Below, piece by piece: positions 29,268-42,047 of a DNA stretch of 64,000 nucleotides. The translations under genes and the position numbers were made by a program. Position 1 is the first letter of the stretch, and every line of letters starts with the position of its first letter. Location of the stretch: NCBI RefSeq assembly GCF_003201285.1, contig NZ_QICS01000002.1, forward strand, positions 558,001-622,000, read 5' to 3'. A model generated the notes under the pieces. The model saw only the letters and a list, made by a program, of their open reading frames with translations, did not search any database and was not told where the DNA came from. Source of the stretch: Lachnotalea glycerini (GTDB taxonomy: Bacteria > Bacillota > Clostridia > Lachnospirales > Lachnospiraceae).

Positions 29268-29330
29268 AATCATTGTTTAGCGAGGAAAGATATGCTAGAA
29301 TTATTTTATCTATCTTTGAGGAGGCAAGTC

Positions 29331-30245
29331 ATGGAAGAGAAGGAAATAATTTTAGCAAAAATATGTGCAATATTAGATAAACCATATTTTATAATAAAAG
29401 AGAATGGTGAGTTTAAGAAATATTTAAAGTGTTGTGGCTTAGGAAAATTATATGATGACAATGCAGATTATTTAGAGCCATATTGGTATAATGGAACTTG
29501 GCAAAATCCAAGAGAAGAATATAATATTTTCATCGGCTTGGACAATATTTTTACTGAACTTTTAAAAAGTAATGAGACGAAGAAATTATCATTACTTATT
29601 GTGGAATTAGGAAATAATATTAATCCATATATCACGTCCAGATATTATGAAGACGATAGATGTAAGAAGTATGTGGATAAATTAATTAATCTTTATCAGT
29701 TACTGGGATTCGAATTAGTAAAAGAAACAGATTATTTTGATGTAATACCGTGGAGTGGAAATACAGAAAAGATAGCCGATGTTTATGGATTAGAGCAGTG
29801 GCTACTTAATAATTATCCGGAAATTTACGATTCATATGAAGGATCGATTGATGCTTTTGTAAGTGGGAATTTTGGAACTTGCATAGAGGCTTGCCGAACT
29901 ACATTAACAGGTCTATTCTCAAAATATAAAGGTCCAGACTCCTTTGCCAAATGGTTTAGAGGAACAGCAGATATAGCTGGGGAATATGATGGTTCAAATA
30001 TGCAAGATATAAAAAATCATCTTGATGCATTAGGTAAAAGAGAATTGTCTGAATTTTTTGAAGAAAATATATCTGGTAGTTACAAGAAAACACGAGCAAT
30101 CTATAGTATCTATTCAATGCTATCAGATTATGGAACTCATAGGCAAGAAGGAACAGAGGAAACACCATCTAAGGAAGATGCACTTATGATGTTAAGAATG
30201 ACAGAGGATATTATGATTTGGATTTTTCAAAAAAGAGATAGTTGA
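29331..30245 (+). CDS. Unknown AT-rich cargo protein, possible Abi/HEPN-like defence gene
   Basis: The 304-residue protein starts at ATG 29331 behind GAGGAGG. It is much more AT-rich than the terminase and portal genes on either side. The N-terminal part resembles no known domain. The C-terminal third has DAFVSGNFGTCIEACRTTLT followed by YSMLSDYGTHRQEGTEETPS and KEDALMMLRMTEDIMIWIF, which recalls the C-terminal domain of abortive-infection proteins (a helix with counted residues, then SxxGxH-like turn). Phage genes for head assembly are not expected to be split here, so this is a moron. A role in excluding other phages is inference. Confidence 0.6.
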   Translation: MEEKEIILAKICAILDKPYFIIKENGEFKKYLKCCGLGKLYDDNADYLEPYWYNGTWQNPREEYNIFIGLDNIFTELLKSNETKKLSLLIVELGNNINPYITSRYYEDDRCKKYVDKLINLYQLLGFELVKETDYFDVIPWSGNTEKIADVYGLEQWLLNNYPEIYDSYEGSIDAFVSGNFGTCIEACRTTLTGLFSKYKGPDSFAKWFRGTADIAGEYDGSNMQDIKNHLDALGKRELSEFFEENISGSYKKTRAIYSIYSMLSDYGTHRQEGTEETPSKEDALMMLRMTEDIMIWIFQKRDS

Positions 30246-30285: not shown

Positions 30286-30309
30286 GCGCTTCTTCGGAGG
30301 TGCTTTTTT
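30286..30309 (+). terminator. Hairpin with T run before portal
   Basis: GCGCTTC and GAGGTGC form a stem with G-U pairs around a TTCG loop, followed by six T. It lies between the AT-rich cargo gene and portal and would limit read-through from either. Confidence 0.6.
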
Positions 30310-35641: not shown

Positions 35642-36019
35642 ATGAGCATTATCAGGACGATTGAGATTGACGGAAAGGATGTTTTATTTAAGGCGTCAGC
35701 GGCAATTCCACGGATTTACCGTTTGAAGTTCCAGAGGGATATTTATAAGGATTTACGGGCGTTGGAACAGAGCGTGAATGGCTCGGAAGAAGGGGAGTCA
35801 GGGCTTGACCTGTTTTCCTTGGAGATGTTTGAAAATATTGCGTTTGTGATGGCGAAACATGCAGAGGATTCCATTCCTGACACGCCGGAGGAATGGCTGG
35901 ATGGATTTAATACATTTTCCATTTACCAGGTGCTTCCGAAGCTCATTGAGTTGTGGGGATTGAATGTGCAGACAGATGTGGAGGCTAAAAAAAACTTCGC
36001 CCAACAGAGCGTGAAATGA
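35642..36019 (+). CDS. Tail assembly chaperone, short form (G)
   Basis: The 125-residue protein starts at ATG 35642 after GGAGGCAG. It begins SIIRTIEIDGKDVLFKASAA and has IPRIYRLKFQRDIYKDLR, the typical opening of tail assembly chaperones that bind the tape measure protein. Near its end it passes through AAAAAAAAC (35987-35995); ribosomes slipping back one base there make the longer GT form. Confidence 0.9.
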   Translation: MSIIRTIEIDGKDVLFKASAAIPRIYRLKFQRDIYKDLRALEQSVNGSEEGESGLDLFSLEMFENIAFVMAKHAEDSIPDTPEEWLDGFNTFSIYQVLPKLIELWGLNVQTDVEAKKNFAQQSVK

Positions 36020-36180
36020 CAACGCCGCTGTTCCTCCTGCGGTGTGTGCAGCTGGGGCTTTCTATGCAGGATTTGGAACTGCTTTCCATTGGACTGATTA
36101 ATGACATGTATGCGGAGAGCAGGAATGATGAATGCAAGTATGCCCAGCTGGCAACTCAGGAGGATATGAATAAGTTCTGA
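35642..36180 (+). CDS. Tail assembly chaperone GT fusion made by -1 ribosomal frameshifting
   Basis: The zero frame reads GCT AAA AAA AAC TTC; the slippery heptamer A AAA AAC (35989-35995) allows a -1 shift. The -1 frame then stays open to TGA 36178-36180 and encodes KLRPTEREMTTPLFLLRCVQ, LGLSMQDLELLSIGLINDMY and a tail QLATQEDMNKF, which matches the T part of G/GT chaperones. The product has about 179 residues. The T part has no own ribosome site. In lambda-like phages the G:GT ratio is needed for tail assembly. Confidence 0.85.
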
Positions 36181-36186
36181 TTATCG

Positions 36187-36228
36187 TTGATAGGGTGGTC
36201 GATTCCTGCTATACTGGTAGCAGGAATC
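36187..36228 (+). promoter_or_regulatory. Promoter with overlapping palindrome before AbiH
   Basis: TTGATA (36187-36192) and TATACT (36210-36215) have a 17-base spacer, a near-consensus sigma-A promoter. A perfect 11-bp inverted repeat (GATTCCTGCTA, 36201-36211, with TAGCAGGAATC, 36218-36228) covers the -10 box and could be an operator. It gives the AbiH cargo its own transcription from within the tail operon. Confidence 0.72.
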
Positions 36229-36305
36229 GGCTGATAGATTCAATGAAAAACAGGAACATATTGGTGGGTTTACTAATCGGAACTTAATTATTTGGGAGCC
36301 ATAGA

Positions 36306-37328
36306 ATGAAAATATTAACAATAATAGGAAATGGTTTTGATTTGGGACACGATCTTCCTACCCAATTTGATAATTTCATAAAATCAAATTATAACATTTT
36401 TAGTCAAAAATACGGTGCTTTTCGTAATGAAAATAATAATTGGAAAGATGTCGAAAGTCAATATAAACAACTGCTATGTAAAATTATGCGAGATAGAAAA
36501 GGGATTGATATTACTGAAGAAATAGATAATATCATTCAAGGTTATGGATTTAACGAATACGGGGAAGTAGATTATTATAATTACACTTCAGAAGCATTTA
36601 TGGAAGAATATGAAAAAATAATTTCTTTTATCAATTTATTAAATCAGTTTGAACAGGATTTTTTAGAATATTTGAAAGCTAATTGTTGTGATGAGCAGCT
36701 GAAAGCCAAAGTTATTTATAACAAAATTGAAGAAATATTATCCGCTTCAACCAAAATAATAAATTTCAATTATACAAATGCGGTTGAGGTTATTTATGGC
36801 ATCAAAGATATAGTGCATATTCACGGAAATATTGATAATTCAATAGCGATAGGGTGTGGAACTTTAGATGAGGTGAAAGAATCTATGGTTGATGATAAGT
36901 ATCCAACAATCGAAAACTTTGGGATGAATAAGCATGGATTTGCTGAAATGATGGCTTATTATGAAGAGGATATGGAAGGCAATCTAGTTGAAAGTCATTT
37001 TATAAAAAGATTTTTTGATGAAGTATCTTCGGTAATAGAAGAAAATGAGGTACGTATTTTTACGCTTTTAGATGAAAAAAGCAAAGATTCTTTAGCATTG
37101 CGTAAACAAATAATTAAAGATTTGCCAAAAGAACACTATGACAAAGTTTATATTATAGGTCATTCGCTGGGCGAGGCAGATCATGCTGTGTTAGAGGTAA
37201 TTAATAAAGATGCAATAGTTAATTGCTTTTATCATACGGATAAAGATTATGAACACATGAAAAATACGTTAGGAACAATGAACTTTAATTTTGAATTGTT
37301 ATCAGATATAGATTTGTATAAAAAATAA
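36306..37328 (+). CDS. AbiH-family abortive-infection protein
   Basis: This 340-residue protein opens with ILTIIGNGFDLGHDLPTQF, the hallmark of AbiH, and keeps IINFNYTNAVEVIYG (about residue 150), IVHIHGNIDNSIAIG (about 170) and VYIIGHSLGEADHAVL (about 280), all characteristic of the family. AbiH of Lactococcus aborts phage infection; the biochemical mechanism is not known to me. The gene is strongly AT-rich compared with tail genes on both sides. It has its own promoter and is followed by an EEP-fold protein 46 bases downstream, probably co-transcribed. Confidence 0.9.
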   Translation: MKILTIIGNGFDLGHDLPTQFDNFIKSNYNIFSQKYGAFRNENNNWKDVESQYKQLLCKIMRDRKGIDITEEIDNIIQGYGFNEYGEVDYYNYTSEAFMEEYEKIISFINLLNQFEQDFLEYLKANCCDEQLKAKVIYNKIEEILSASTKIINFNYTNAVEVIYGIKDIVHIHGNIDNSIAIGCGTLDEVKESMVDDKYPTIENFGMNKHGFAEMMAYYEEDMEGNLVESHFIKRFFDEVSSVIEENEVRIFTLLDEKSKDSLALRKQIIKDLPKEHYDKVYIIGHSLGEADHAVLEVINKDAIVNCFYHTDKDYEHMKNTLGTMNFNFELLSDIDLYKK

Positions 37329-37374
37329 TAAAAATATAATGTAACAATGAATTTGTACTTTGTGAGGTGAGAAA

Positions 37375-38232
37375 ATGCCAGTATCCTCGTCACTTAAAAT
37401 TATGGAATGGAATTTACATTTTCAGTCTAAAAAAGCGGAAATTGCTGATTTCGTTAAGGATAGAGTAAAAAGCCAAGATGTGGCAATATTTACGGAGATT
37501 GTTAAGTCCGCTTCTGTATTGGCGTTAATGAATGAACTAAATGAATTTAACTTTTATGAATCATGTAATACAGAGGGAAATCAAATTATTATTGCCGTCA
37601 GAAGAAATATTAAGGTTTCGCGCGTAATAAGCAAAATTCCAAATGTTGCAATATATAATGCACCGAATTTATTACACGTGGAAATAATGATTGACGGAAT
37701 AAAATATCAGATTATAGGAGTCCGTATCCGTATAGATGACGGTTCAGAGGATGACTATAGAGATAGAAATAAGCAATTTGAATATTTGGTAAATTATCTC
37801 AGCGATCTGGAAAATATAATAGTTTCAGGCGATTTCAATAATTCATATATTAGAGGAGATTTGAGCGAAAACTATAGCAATGTCAAAAAGCTGTATGAGA
37901 AAAATTATAAAGGAGAACTACTTTGTACAAGGTTTTTCAATTATCATATGATGAAAGAAATGTTAGGAGAAAATGTAAACGTATTTACGCCAGAGGATAA
38001 GTATTCGTGGGGATTAAAATATAAGGATGGTGAATTTGATTACGGATATATACGAAATGACCATTTGATTGCTTCAAAGACTATCATCGTGGAAAAGTAT
38101 GATTATGACTGGAATTTTGTATGTGAAAACGAAGACACTTACAAAGTTATGAAATTACGGAAAGACGGTATTATGGAAGTTGCAGCGGGATATCCAGACC
38201 ATGCGGTTTTATATGTGGAAATAAGAATATAA
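37375..38232 (+). CDS. Endonuclease/exonuclease/phosphatase (EEP) family protein, AbiH neighbour
   Basis: The 285-residue protein has the EEP/DNase I-like order: KIMEWNLHFQ (N), IFTEIVKS (catalytic E), VSGDFNNSYIRGD (D-x-N, about residue 151), DYGYIRNDHLIA and a final GYPDHAVLYVEIRI (D-H pair). These are the metal and catalytic residues of EEP nucleases and phosphatases. Substrate is unknown; DNA, RNA or a nucleotide phosphate are possible. ATG 37375 follows GTGAGGTGAG. AT content matches AbiH, so the two genes probably arrived together and may form one defence module. That pairing is inference. Confidence 0.82.
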   Translation: MPVSSSLKIMEWNLHFQSKKAEIADFVKDRVKSQDVAIFTEIVKSASVLALMNELNEFNFYESCNTEGNQIIIAVRRNIKVSRVISKIPNVAIYNAPNLLHVEIMIDGIKYQIIGVRIRIDDGSEDDYRDRNKQFEYLVNYLSDLENIIVSGDFNNSYIRGDLSENYSNVKKLYEKNYKGELLCTRFFNYHMMKEMLGENVNVFTPEDKYSWGLKYKDGEFDYGYIRNDHLIASKTIIVEKYDYDWNFVCENEDTYKVMKLRKDGIMEVAAGYPDHAVLYVEIRI

Positions 38233-38294
38233 CTTCAAGTAAGTCAGTTAGGCAAGCTGGCACTAACTTGTTATTCGTTCAGGAGGCAGCAGGA

Positions 38295-38717
38295 ATGATT
38301 GATATAAGGGATATGAATTACGAATCCAATATGGAAGAAATGAGCACCTTCATAAACAATCCGTTGTTCGCCGAGTTATGCCAGCATTTGGAGAACGAGT
38401 ACAAGGTGCTTTGCAAGATAGAATATAGCAAAGATGTCTGGCTGCGCGGATGGAACATAAAGTTCAAAAAAGCAGGAAAATCATTATGCACGGTCTACCC
38501 GAAGGAAAATTATTTTACTGTGCTGGTGGTGGTTGGCAATAAAGAAAAGGAGTCGGTGGAAAATCTGCTGCCGCAAATGTCCGGGGAGATTCGAGAAATA
38601 TATGCTAAAACAAAAGAAGGGAATGGACAGAGATGGCTGATGATAGATTTGGAGACATCCGGGGCAGTATACAACGATGTGTTAAAGCTCATCAGTATCC
38701 GCAGACAAAGTAAGTAA
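38295..38717 (+). CDS. DUF3788 family protein
   Basis: This 140-residue protein has EYKVLCKIEYSKDVWLRGWN and KFKKAGKSLCTVYPKENYFT, consistent with DUF3788, and a C-terminal RWLMIDLETSGAVYNDVLKL. The family is common in Firmicutes with no known function. ATG 38295 follows CAGGAGGCAG. Base composition is closer to the phage than the AbiH pair is. It is followed by an MmcQ/YjbR gene, so both may be a second cargo block. Confidence 0.7.
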   Translation: MIDIRDMNYESNMEEMSTFINNPLFAELCQHLENEYKVLCKIEYSKDVWLRGWNIKFKKAGKSLCTVYPKENYFTVLVVVGNKEKESVENLLPQMSGEIREIYAKTKEGNGQRWLMIDLETSGAVYNDVLKLISIRRQSK

Positions 38718-38743
38718 ATTCCGCTTTCCAGGAGGTGGCGTCT

Positions 38744-39079
38744 ATGACTGAGCGAAAGGAAGTTTTAGATTACGGCATGACTTTGCCGGCTGTATACACG
38801 GATGCACCGTTCCATGATGATAACTGGGTGCTTCTCCGTTTTAGGAAGAACAAAAAGGCATTTGCATGGACTTATGAGAAAGATGGTACAATGAGGGTAA
38901 ATGTGAAAGTAGATCCGCAGTGGCGGGATTTCTGGAGGAATGCTTACCCGTCTGTTTTGCCGGGGTATCATCAAAATAAAGACCATTGGAACACTGTCAT
39001 TCTGGACGGGACGATTCCGGATCAAGAGATAAAGCGGATGATTGCGGAAAGTTATGACCTTATCGCAAAGCAAAAATAG
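38744..39079 (+). CDS. MmcQ/YjbR family protein
   Basis: The 111-residue protein shows YGMTLPAVYTDAPFHDDNWV, AFAWTYEKDGTMRVNVKVDP and YPSVLPGYHQNKDHWNTVIL, the MmcQ/YjbR (CyaY-like fold) pattern with the conserved GYHxNKxHWNTV segment. Function is unknown, although DNA binding has been proposed. ATG 38744 follows AGGAGGTGG. It is an unusual gene inside a phage tail operon. Confidence 0.85.
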   Translation: MTERKEVLDYGMTLPAVYTDAPFHDDNWVLLRFRKNKKAFAWTYEKDGTMRVNVKVDPQWRDFWRNAYPSVLPGYHQNKDHWNTVILDGTIPDQEIKRMIAESYDLIAKQK

Positions 39080-39155
39080 TATATCTAATCATAGTTGAAG
39101 AAGGATTACATAGATACCTGTCGCAATGATGGGTGTCTTTTTCAATACATTTGTT

Positions 39156-39177
39156 GAGCCTAAGAGGCTCTTTTTTT
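39156..39177 (+). terminator. Terminator before the tape measure gene
   Basis: GAGCC and GGCTC form a short stem with a TAAGA loop followed by seven T. It closes the cargo block before the tape-measure gene. Confidence 0.75.
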
Positions 39178-39203: not shown

Positions 39204-42047
39204 ATGGCCAACCGCATACAGGGTATCACGGTGGAAATCGGTGGCGATACCACCAAGCTAACCACCGCATTAAAAGGTGTGAATTCGGAAATCCGAAACA
39301 CCCAATCCCAGTTAAAGGATGTGGAGAAGCTCTTGAAGCTGGATCCGCATAATTCAGAGCTTCTGGCGCAGAAGCAGCGGCTTCTGACAGATGCCATCGG
39401 GGAGACAAAAGACAAGCTGGAAGCGTTGAAGTCTGCCCAGCAGCAGGTACAGCAGCAGTTTGAGCGAGGCGAGATTACCAAAGACCAGTACGATACCCTG
39501 CAGCGGGAAATCATCGAAACCGAACAGAATTTAAAAGACCTGGAAAAGCAGGCAAAGGAAACGAATACCTCCCTGTCAGGATTTACACAGGCAGCAGAGA
39601 AAATTGGGAAGTTCGGTGATGTGGCTACTTCCGCCGGAAAGAAGATGCTCCCAGTTACCGCAGCCATTACTGCGGCCGGCGGGGCATCTGCCAAGATGGG
39701 GATGGATTTTGAGGATGCCATGGCGAAAGTGAATACCATTGCGGATACCACAGAGGTGCCCTTATCGGAACTGGAAAAGGCGATTCTTGACCTGTCCAAT
39801 CAGACAGGAATTAGTTCCACGGAGATTGCCGGTAATGTCTATGATGCTATTTCTGCGGGACAGAAGACCGGAGATGCGGTCAACTTCGTTTCCAATTCGA
39901 CTAAACTGGCAAGGGCTGGTTTTGCGGATGCGGGAAGTGCCCTGGATGTCCTGACTACCATCATGAATGCCTATGGTTTGGAGGCATCTGAAGTGAACCA
40001 TGTATCCGATGTGCTGATTCAGACACAGAACCTTGGTAAGACCACAGTTGGGGAGTTGTCCTCTTCCATGGGAAAAATTATTCCTACTGCGAAAGCTAAT
40101 GGTGTGGCATTGGAACAGGTGGCGGCAGGGTATGCGATTATGACATCCAATGGTGTGGCAACCGCAGAATCCACTACCTACATGAACTCCATGCTGAACG
40201 AGCTTGGAAAATCCGGCACGAAGGTGTCGGACACCTTAAAAGAGAAAACAGGAAAGTCCTTTTTGGAACTGATGCAGGAAGGAGCCAGCCTTTCCGATGT
40301 ACTGCAGATTATTTCTGACAGTGCAAAGGAGCAGGGACTGGCTTTTGGTGATTTATGGGGCAGTGCAGAAGCAGGAAAAGCCGGATTGATTCTGCTTGGG
40401 GACAGTGCGGCAGCCTTTAATGGAACCTTGGAACAGATGCAGAATTCTACCGGGGCAACGGAGACAGCTTTCGGGAAACTGAACACCAACTCCTATACTA
40501 TCCAGAAGGCATTAAACCAGTTAAAGAACACATCCATTGAACTGGGTTCTGCCATTATGAGTGTACTGTCTCCGATCATTATGGCACTGGCGGAGAAAAT
40601 TCAGGCATTTACTACATGGTTTTCCGGGCTGTCAGATGGTACCAAAAAGATGATTGTAATCATTGCAGGTATTGTGGCGGCTGTCGGTCCGGTACTGATT
40701 ATCATAGGTAAGATTGCCACTGGAATCAGTGCGGTGATGAGTCTGGCTGGCATGATAGCACCTGCCATTTCTGCTTTGATTCCGGTCATTGCCAGTGTGG
40801 GTGTACCAATCCTGGCTATTATTGCTGTGATAGTGGCAGTAATTGCCATTGGCAAGTTATTGATTGCTCACTGGGATGAAATCAAGGCTGCGTGCATCAG
40901 TATCTGGAATGCAATAAAGGAGTTCTTTACTGGGCTGTGGGAGAATATTCAGCAGACAGCCAGTGCAGCCTGGACAGCGATTTCCCAGTTCTTCTCCACC
41001 ATCTGGACGGGAATCACCACAGTGGCACAGACCATCTGGAATGGGATTGCCACATTTTTCTCCGCTTTGTGGGAAGGTATCAAGAACCTGTTCCAGACCG
41101 TGTTGACGGTAATTTCAACCATTGTCACTACCTACTTTAACATTTATAAGACTATCATCACCACAGTGCTGACAGCAATCCAGACCATTTTCACTACAGT
41201 TTGGAATGCCATCAAGGCAGTGGTCACAACAGTGGTTACGGCGGTGCAGACATTCCTTATTACGACATGGACTACGATTCAGACAGTTATTACCACCGTT
41301 CTGAATGCGATTCAGAACATCGTTTCTTCGGCATGGATTGGTATTAAAAATGTAATAACCACGGTCATGAGTACGGTACAGAATGTGGTAAGCACAGCCT
41401 GGAATGCTGTGAAGAATACGGTATCTACGGTGCTGAATGCCATCAAAACCGCTGTTACAAATATTTTCAATAACATCGTAAACGGCATCAGCAGTTCCAT
41501 GAGCAATGTATACAATGCCGTAAAAAATGGGTTTGAGAAAGCGGCCGGGTATATCAAGGGACTTGCTTCCAGTGCCTGGAACTGGGGCGTGGATATTGTC
41601 AATGGAATCGCAGACGGTATCCGTAATGCCGTTGGAAATGTGGTGGATGCGGTCAAGAGCATAGCGGACAAGATTGCGGCATTCCTCCATTTTTCCGTAC
41701 CGGACGAAGGACCGCTTACGGAATATGAATCCTGGATGCCGGACTTCATGGCGGGGTTAGCAAAGGGCATTGAAAAGAGCCGGGGGTTAGTGGAAAACGC
41801 CGTGAAAGGCGTGGCTTCCGATATGGTGGTCAGCCCACAGGTACGTACTGCAGATATGATGGCACAGCAGGCGGCATCTACTAATTCTATCAGTCACTTG
41901 CTTTCCGGCATTAAGGATTCGGTAAGCGGAATCACTATGGGCGGTGCGGGAACCATCTGTATCCCGGTGTACATTGGCGGTACTTTGCTGGATGAAGTGG
42001 TGGTCAATGCACAGAACAGGCAGAATCTCAGATCAGGAGGGCGGTAA
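39204..42047 (+). CDS. Tail tape measure protein
   Basis: The 947-residue protein has an N-terminal coiled-coil part (LKGVNSEIRNTQSQLKDVEK and following, residues 20-130), a TMP region with MGMDFEDAMAKVNTIADTTE, a hydrophobic stretch of several membrane-type segments (about residues 490-560), then a repetitive W/I/T-rich region (about 575-760) with recurring WNAIK/VVTTV units, and a C-terminal SVPDEGPLTEYESWMPDFM. Length sets the tail length; at about 0.15 nm per residue this suggests roughly 140 nm, an estimate only. ATG follows GAGGAGGTAT. Confidence 0.95.
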   Translation: MANRIQGITVEIGGDTTKLTTALKGVNSEIRNTQSQLKDVEKLLKLDPHNSELLAQKQRLLTDAIGETKDKLEALKSAQQQVQQQFERGEITKDQYDTLQREIIETEQNLKDLEKQAKETNTSLSGFTQAAEKIGKFGDVATSAGKKMLPVTAAITAAGGASAKMGMDFEDAMAKVNTIADTTEVPLSELEKAILDLSNQTGISSTEIAGNVYDAISAGQKTGDAVNFVSNSTKLARAGFADAGSALDVLTTIMNAYGLEASEVNHVSDVLIQTQNLGKTTVGELSSSMGKIIPTAKANGVALEQVAAGYAIMTSNGVATAESTTYMNSMLNELGKSGTKVSDTLKEKTGKSFLELMQEGASLSDVLQIISDSAKEQGLAFGDLWGSAEAGKAGLILLGDSAAAFNGTLEQMQNSTGATETAFGKLNTNSYTIQKALNQLKNTSIELGSAIMSVLSPIIMALAEKIQAFTTWFSGLSDGTKKMIVIIAGIVAAVGPVLIIIGKIATGISAVMSLAGMIAPAISALIPVIASVGVPILAIIAVIVAVIAIGKLLIAHWDEIKAACISIWNAIKEFFTGLWENIQQTASAAWTAISQFFSTIWTGITTVAQTIWNGIATFFSALWEGIKNLFQTVLTVISTIVTTYFNIYKTIITTVLTAIQTIFTTVWNAIKAVVTTVVTAVQTFLITTWTTIQTVITTVLNAIQNIVSSAWIGIKNVITTVMSTVQNVVSTAWNAVKNTVSTVLNAIKTAVTNIFNNIVNGISSSMSNVYNAVKNGFEKAAGYIKGLASSAWNWGVDIVNGIADGIRNAVGNVVDAVKSIADKIAAFLHFSVPDEGPLTEYESWMPDFMAGLAKGIEKSRGLVENAVKGVASDMVVSPQVRTADMMAQQAASTNSISHLLSGIKDSVSGITMGGAGTICIPVYIGGTLLDEVVVNAQNRQNLRSGGR

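Follow-up and report, generated by a model that had tools for sequence, protein, structure and literature searches.

What do a gene of the abortive-infection family AbiH and an AT-rich gene for an EEP-fold enzyme do together inside the tail operon of a prophage? The question is raised by positions 36,187 to 38,232 of a 64,000-nucleotide stretch of Lachnotalea glycerini DNA (contig NZ_QICS01000002.1, positions 558,001 to 622,000; this whole stretch is hereafter called the window), for which a first-pass annotation had proposed a two-gene defence module lodged between the tail chaperones and the tape measure gene, at a place where cargo is not expected. The reading preferred here, which is held to be probable though well short of settled, is that positions 36,187 to 38,232 form the 5' half of a moron of four genes (AbiH, EEP, DUF3788 and YjbR) in a siphophage-type prophage, that this moron sits in a cargo slot shared with related phages, and that AbiH is a solo SIR2-type defence with the EEP protein as a separate passenger. 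A promoter of its own, set inside an inverted repeat, would allow the cassette to be expressed from the silent prophage, and two terminators would keep its transcription out of the tape measure gene.

The slot is shared by many related phages. Loci on viral contigs were sampled by closeness to the phage of the window, as the best 80 of 253 matches to the chaperone and 68 loci matching the N-terminus of the tape measure protein; both border genes were found in 93 of the 145 fetched loci, and 70 of these 93 were distinct in sequence. The distance between the border genes ranged from 177 to 4925 bases, counted from where the first chaperone frame ends to where the tape measure gene begins and including about 160 bases of the second frame. 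Loci were counted as independent after clustering at 90% identity over 70% of length, and a slot was classed as holding cargo at a distance of at least 560 bases and as empty below 300 bases. The location between chaperones and tape measure was confirmed, and the expectation that no cargo should lie there was overturned, since 44 of the 56 independent loci (the window's own phage included) hold cargo at this site, 11 are empty and 1 lies between the two classes. Mean GC content is 34% in the cargo and 51% in the first part of the tape measure gene, and the cargo has the lower value in all 44 loci.

The contents of the slot change from phage to phage. A mechanical search for open reading frames (ORFs) of at least 85 aa yielded 91 cargo ORFs, some of which may be spurious, chiefly those on the minus strand; they reduce to 75 representatives, among them the four of the window. 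For the family scans these ORFs were held in an alignment that serves as a container and is not a true alignment, and 72 Pfam families were recorded among the 75 representatives (25 families displayed), including KAP NTPase, Schlafen/AlbA, RhuM, YhcG nuclease, Mom, HNH, DUF1016 and MerR. A direct Pfam scan of 20 large cargo proteins gave matches in 13 and none in 7, and PADLOC models were matched at 1e-5 or better by 7 of 10 hand-picked large cargo proteins (the models including AbiLi, mREase_IV and several PDC models); the cargo of locus L049 matches AbiJ_NTD4. By profile search at 1e-3, no member of the AbiH or EEP family was found in the 145 loci, except in two that belong to the window's own phage. 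The site is thus a cargo hotspot with ever-different, often defence-like genes. A Mom-like gene was also seen as the last slot gene in three loci and their relatives (L138:4110-4934, L149:4139-4945 and L089:1506-2270), about 80% identical among them and preceded by differing first genes.

In the window, the prophage late operon lies on the plus strand, with the slot and its borders arranged as follows.

35642..36019, plus strand: tail assembly chaperone, upstream border of the slot (phrog_709, 5.9e-39; PHROGs lists no function).
36019..36180, plus strand: second chaperone frame (phrog_3033, 2.7e-19; PHROGs lists no function).
36187..36215, plus strand: promoter-like site of the cassette, TTGATA-17-TATACT with an extended -10 (TG), 10/12 consensus matches.
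36196..36233, plus strand: inverted repeat with the -10 box central, perfect 12-nt arms at 36200-36211 and 36218-36229; the arms covary in relatives.
36306..37328, plus strand: AbiH, 340 aa, predicted SIR2 fold (PF14253, 3.6e-28; model pLDDT 87.9).
37375..38232, plus strand: divergent EEP-type (TDP2-like) protein, 285 aa, with intact catalytic motifs (relative L006 passes PF03372; Foldseek match to TDP2).
38268..38717, plus strand: DUF3788 protein, cargo gene 3 (PF12663, 3.9e-31).
38735..39079, plus strand: YjbR/MmcQ-like protein, cargo gene 4 (PF04237, 1.5e-29).
39112..39138, plus strand: first terminator-like hairpin at the cassette end, with similar sequence at the same place in relatives.
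39156..39170, plus strand: second terminator-like hairpin, GAGCC..GGCTC followed by T7, from the terminator scan.
39204..42047, plus strand: tail tape measure protein, downstream border of the slot (phrog_1272, 1.3e-162).

By PHROGs the gene order is major tail protein (phrog_88), phrog_709, phrog_3033, a gap of 3 kb and the tape measure protein (phrog_1272); the two families before the gap are presumed, from their position, to be the tail chaperone frames, the second of which is probably reached by frameshift. An IMG/VR contig of 43,684 bases encodes EEP, AbiH, chaperone and tape measure proteins identical to those of the window and, if collinear, corresponds to about 9053-52736. All four cassette ORFs are open, and the third probably starts at an in-frame ATG at 38295 behind GGAGG, the likelier start to judge from the sequence. 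The GC content falls in two groups, AbiH and EEP (28.3% and 32.3%) against DUF3788 and YjbR (41.8% and 44.9%); the latter differ little from the chaperone, major tail and tape measure genes (45-49%), and the split may reflect two acquisitions. Of the proposed two-gene module, one part stands, in that both genes look like cargo under a promoter of their own; its extent does not, because the cassette runs on through DUF3788 and YjbR to the two terminator-like hairpins.

The promoter and its repeat had been correctly described as near-consensus and perfect, respectively. The site TTGATA-17-TATACT is the sole plus-strand match at 10/12 in the 3.7 kb scanned, and its -10 box lies at the same place as the -10-like boxes of related loci; the repeat has arms complementary at 12/12 positions around a 6-nt spacer, overlaps the -10 and, folded as RNA, would form 17 pairs at -30.8 kcal/mol (z = -6.3, with 0/200 shuffles as stable). 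At the other end of the slot, 40 of the 44 independent cargo loci have an intrinsic terminator within the 130 bases that precede the tape measure gene; control windows have one in 0/55 (tape measure), 1/44 (cargo) and 1/56 (chaperone). A terminator-like hairpin was likewise observed between chaperone and tape measure in the empty slots L080 and L133, which means that late transcription must pass it or that the tape measure gene has a promoter of its own.

A repeat of this kind recurs at part of the related slots. An inverted repeat with a central TATNNT lies just behind the chaperone stop in 28 of 51 cargo-bearing sequences, and 24 of the 28 also beat 20/20 shuffles, which in this test keep base composition only; both conditions together were found in no control window (cargo 0/51, chaperone 0/51). 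Repeats alone are unspecific, because a repeat beats its shuffles in 9/51 chaperone windows (cargo 2/51, slot 30/51); no control window combines such a repeat with TATNNT at its centre. A rule-based test with 40 shuffles each retained 17 of the 44 independent loci with a central -10 in an inverted repeat. In these 17 loci the arms of one locus pair with each other at 11.5 of 14 positions and with swapped arms at 8.4, and 0/20,000 permutations reached the observed value, a statistic that takes in related loci and so retains their relatedness. An earlier hand-picked set gave 10.9 against 7.9; it comprised 21 of the 28 central -10 loci, leaving out the near-duplicates L053, L060, L142 and L120 as well as L085, L073 and L138, the last without good reason, and L138 also falls outside the 17 loci chosen by rule. 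For instance, the pair beside the outer AGCC/GGCT is A-T in L105, G-C in L045 and T-A in L117. A search of the rest of the window that allowed up to 4 or 7 substitutions turned up no further copy of the element.

Such covarying arms appear to be more in keeping with an RNA hairpin or a cruciform than with a single fixed operator, and an operator bound by a co-evolving repressor is another possible cause of the repeat. The left arm lies upstream of the expected transcription start, so the full hairpin would form only in read-through RNA from the upstream late genes. On the basis of this read-through-only hairpin and its covarying arms, the slot promoter could be imagined as a built-in switch between lysis and lysogeny, an idea that we consider rather doubtful at present. 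In the lysogen, the promoter with its -10 central in the repeat would drive the cargo; in the lytic cycle, transcripts reading through the repeat would fold into a strong hairpin, or the palindrome would be bound by a phage protein, and defence cargo would be silenced or uncoupled, leaving the own phage unharmed as late transcription passes the terminators.

Within the cassette, the assignment of the first gene to an abortive-infection family is firm. AbiH scores 99.8 bits against PF14253 (E-value 3.6e-28, cut-off 30.9) and 9.8e-13 against the AbiH model of PADLOC, and G8-D12 (GNGFD), W46, E50, N155, Y156, H173, G174, G183, G285 and D292 are invariant in 36/36 aligned members. The protein is 17-26% identical to 27 of the 28 other members in one alignment and 39% to the remaining one (L187); the closest relative found (L189) is 53% identical. 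No AbiH match at 0.01 was obtained among 50,697 phage records, and sequence searches against solved structures returned no meaningful match for AbiH or the EEP protein. On viral contigs, two AbiH genes were observed in one locus on three occasions, adjacent in L191 and L214 and on opposite strands in L196, which are possible AbiH pairs.

The fold of AbiH is well supported by computation. The AlphaFold2 model has a mean pLDDT of 87.9 and a pTM of 0.82; in a Foldseek search of solved structures the top rank went to Escherichia coli Sir2-HerA (E 0.041, probability 0.80), rank 2 to KomBC and rank 13 to a Sir2 protein. When the Foldseek list was realigned with VIA-align 2, SPARSA (Z 12.4, rmsd 3.5, 203 aligned) and ThsA (Z 12.0, rmsd 3.4, 200 aligned) came first, followed by sirtuins and KomBC, and the 50 rows displayed are by title sirtuins or SIR2-type defence complexes (8yhx_H is titled HerA, and 9dpi_C is titled SerRS-SIRT2 complex). 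We take SPARSA, ThsA and KomBC to carry SIR2 domains. A profile alignment to a protein of L257, in its SIR2-like N-terminal part, places FNYT on TNYD and HIHG on KIHG, with a probability of 79%. In the literature, AbiH was predicted to be a Sir2 superfamily enzyme in 2012 (PMC3506569), and an AbiH inhibited Vansinderenvirus in Streptococcus thermophilus, its mode of action being listed as unknown in 2025 (PMC12322248). It is most likely that AbiH acts alone as a SIR2-fold, NAD+-consuming effector, which is also the most economical mechanism because of the SIR2-type fold matches and the published activity in S. thermophilus. AbiH alone would sense another phage, consume NAD+ through N155 and H173, abort the infection and so defend the lysogen; both the NAD+ cleavage and the trigger are putative.

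The second gene, 37375-38232, is best read as an EEP protein, although its family is reached through relatives. The protein itself has no Pfam match at 0.1 and no PADLOC match, its NCBIfam ExoIII/EEP matches are weak (0.013 and 0.018), and PF03372 has no match at 0.01 in its genome. A relative 32% identical to it (L006) passes the PF03372 cut-off at 1.8e-7, and two further relatives score just below that cut-off. The first-pass annotation was right that the catalytic residues are intact: E41, R117, D153, N155, D229, D275 and H276 are identical in 10/10 aligned members, the window's included, and N13 in 9/10, within the family motifs EWN, TE, R-I, GDFN, DH and PDH. The fold, weakly supported by computation, comes from a model of pLDDT 50.1, with which Foldseek returned 249 matches at 0.001 or better, led by TDP2 (4.5e-10, probability 1.0) and including a Bacteroides EEP protein as well as inositol phosphatases; the match to TDP2 is taken to support the fold and not a substrate. 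Most likely this is an independent TDP2-like phosphodiesterase, a separate passenger that would act, by a metal-dependent mechanism within a TDP2/ExoIII fold, on phage nucleic acid or on ends joining nucleic acid and protein.

EEP relatives are scarce and mobile in appearance. Within the host's family 7 of 299 genomes have a match, and within its order 5 of 392, the window's genome included. With the window's protein, that of L006 and a mixed alignment as queries, the viral contigs gave no close relative outside the window's own phage; a search with the subfamily alignment added one distant relative (L265, 30% identical), and one phage record has a 24% match in a different context. The set of 11 relatives omits a weak, stop-containing match in genome G129 (L007), and one member (L040) nearly duplicates a protein of L261. 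To judge by neighbours read from sequence, the relatives sit in mobile-looking islands; one in G178 is near an AlbA-like protein, and G118 has two in one stretch. In L257:2248-7942 (genome G413), what looks like an integrative element carries an EEP relative of 246 aa and, about 0.4 kb downstream of it, a 1517-aa protein whose N-terminus is SIR2-like. A three-gene cassette, consisting of an ORF of 169-171 aa, an EEP gene and an ORF of 163-164 aa, was seen in L258:6135-8031 and L265:1-1895, where it adjoins transposase-like or serine-recombinase-like genes; in L264:13149-14522 an ORF of the 169-171 aa type is fused to an EEP domain. This cassette is a candidate for a system in its own right.

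These relatives speak in part for an alternative in which the EEP protein, and not AbiH, is the main effector, acting as a nuclease or protein-DNA-end phosphodiesterase against incoming phage DNA beside a silent AbiH. The catalytic residues kept in every aligned member, the islands with SIR2-like, AlbA-like and transposon-like genes and the cassette common to L265 and L258 would all suit such a role; the lack of a PADLOC match, the weak NCBIfam scores and the rarity within the host's family speak against it, and the published activity belongs to AbiH (PMC12322248), so that this alternative is considered unlikely.

A slightly less probable alternative is that AbiH and the EEP protein form one two-gene defence system, in which AbiH senses infection or makes a product and the EEP protein executes, or in which the EEP protein restrains or reverses AbiH. 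The arrangement invites this reading, for the two genes are neighbours on one strand with 46 bp between them, share a high AT content (28.3% and 32.3% GC) and are preceded by one promoter-like site; the EEP relative of G413, upstream of a SIR2-like protein that matches the AbiH profile, is a faint parallel. A survey of co-occurrence, which the first-pass annotation had named as one check of the pair and, if it came out empty, as half of its refutation, speaks against the pair as far as the searches reach. AbiH passes its cut-off in 33 of the 299 genomes from the host's family and in 14 of the 398 from the phylum, and PF03372 was searched in 47 AbiH-matching genomes, two of them below the AbiH cut-off, with distances compared by eye. 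PF03372 is matched in 40 of the 47, and in all 46 besides the window's the two matches are on separate contigs or have at least about 64 kb between them (the nearest in G775); PF03372 misses the window's own EEP gene, so divergent EEP proteins could escape it, and the fetched loci were covered with the EEP profile instead. That profile found no EEP gene beside 29 other family AbiH loci (up to 1.5 kb of flank, shorter at contig ends), which represent the 29 of 40 other family matches that offered a locus to inspect, some contigs being small (3 kb in G018, 9 kb in G122); none in L187 (5 kb); and none in 49 further AbiH loci from viral contigs (flanks of up to 4 kb). Conversely, the AbiH profile found nothing around 11 EEP relatives in 10 loci, among them L258, L261, L264 and L265.

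The pair was thus rejected as a recurrent module in four ways, and there is no recurrent neighbour pair in the genomes and loci searched. The nearest AbiH relatives have no adjoining EEP gene (the 53% relative stands behind two recombinase-like genes, and the 39% relative was covered above), the EEP relatives have other neighbours, and AbiH was active in S. thermophilus (PMC12322248). No description of an AbiH-EEP pair was found in the open-access literature searched. A functional link confined to this one locus may exist, and a two-gene system as such is judged improbable.

The idea that the cassette is passive, horizontally acquired DNA or a decaying insert of no benefit to phage or host may cite its foreign base composition and the fact that no locus examined, apart from those of the window's own phage, has AbiH or EEP at this site, and it is set aside as equally improbable in view of four open ORFs, intact AbiH and EEP catalytic residues, promoter- and terminator-like sites and a slot that is occupied in 44 of 56 independent loci, in many cases by genes of defence type.

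Several points weigh against the four-gene moron with a solo AbiH. The sampled relatives were picked by closeness to the window's phage. In the 3.7 kb scanned, neither promoter-like sites (18, shuffle mean 14.4) nor terminator-like sites (3, shuffle mean 2.0) exceed chance, and therefore the case for them rests on position and on relatives; among those relatives, a terminator is also present in 4 of 11 empty loci, and 27 of the 44 independent cargo loci fail the test for a central -10 in an inverted repeat. For AbiH, the best Foldseek E-value is 0.041, with none at 0.001, methyltransferases fill most of ranks 4-12, and a common fold is no demonstration of NADase activity. The EEP model, built from two sequences, is poor at a pLDDT of 50.1. 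The short spacing, common strand and similar low GC of AbiH and EEP leave room for co-acquisition, and defence by this copy of AbiH, as by the other three cassette genes, is putative.

Elsewhere in the window, a second AT-rich ORF was noticed at 29292-30245 (317 aa, 31.0% GC), just upstream of a presumed portal ORF at 30300; it has no significant match in Pfam, PADLOC, PHROGs or NCBIfam and is perhaps a second moron.

Where the cassette genes have matches, these are mostly to known types; it is the architecture of slot and promoter that is worth following up. No description of a chaperone-to-tape-measure slot with a covarying palindromic promoter was found in the open-access literature searched, and neither such a slot nor an AbiH-EEP pair appears in the available parts of PMC11364771 (Tai) or PMC11514479. 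The slot allows candidate defence genes to be collected by position alone, 7 of the 20 large cargo proteins being without a Pfam match. It also bears on the open question of how temperate phages keep defence genes in their own late operon and yet escape harm from them, which the fixed frame of palindromic promoter, variable cargo and terminators makes testable with reporter constructs. Confirmation of AbiH as a SIR2-type NADase would give a mechanism to a gene that dates from a publication of 1996 and whose mode of action was still listed as unknown in 2025 (both in PMC12322248).

Compared with known AbiH (PF14253; abiH of Lactococcus lactis S94), the window's copy shares the Pfam family, the conserved motifs and the mobile-element setting; it differs in standing in a prophage tail operon, within a four-gene cassette, and is known here from sequence. 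With the SIR2 defence proteins ThsA, SPARSA, Sir2-HerA and KomBC it has in common the predicted fold (Z 11-12) and, by alignment to a SIR2-like protein, the asparagine of the NY motif and the His-Gly motif; unlike them it has no known sensor partner beside it, the sequence link is weak, and the literature consulted contains no report of NAD+ cleavage by AbiH. The EEP protein resembles the TDP2 branch of its superfamily (5'-tyrosyl-DNA phosphodiesterase) in a predicted fold match of 4.5e-10, from a low-confidence model, and its family motifs EWN, TE, GDFN and PDH correspond to the TDP2 motif set; it differs in being 12-16% identical to the listed chains and in being missed by the Pfam EEP models.

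Among phage morons, gp15 of HK97 is presumed to be one that adjoins the tape measure gene. Like a moron, the cassette has a promoter, a terminator and foreign composition between two conserved phage genes, and the points can be taken one by one: the border genes adjoin without cargo in 11 of 56 independent loci, the promoter and terminator are consensus matches within a frame that recurs in relatives, and AbiH and EEP have 28-32% GC against 45-49% for their neighbours. On these sequence criteria it is a moron by the definition applied here (PMC4378225), presumably one expressed in the prophage state. It departs from the usual moron in having four genes where one is usual, and from morons of the HK97 type in a -10 box central in a covarying inverted repeat that is common to loci with unrelated cargo. 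Defence morons in late operons are already known, an example being Tab between terminase genes (PMC10884400); in 15 Clostridium clostridioforme prophages, the available text reports restriction-modification genes and no classical morons such as toxins (PMC11318856). There is also a likeness to the antiviral hotspots of P2/P4, Vibrio and Bacillus prophages (Rousset 2022, PMC9122126, as far as that text was available), where a fixed site holds varying cargo of known and candidate defence genes. The site described here has the same properties and counts as a prophage defence hotspot in that sense; the Vibrio and Bacillus sites lie beside repressor or regulator and integrase genes, whereas this one lies inside the late tail operon.

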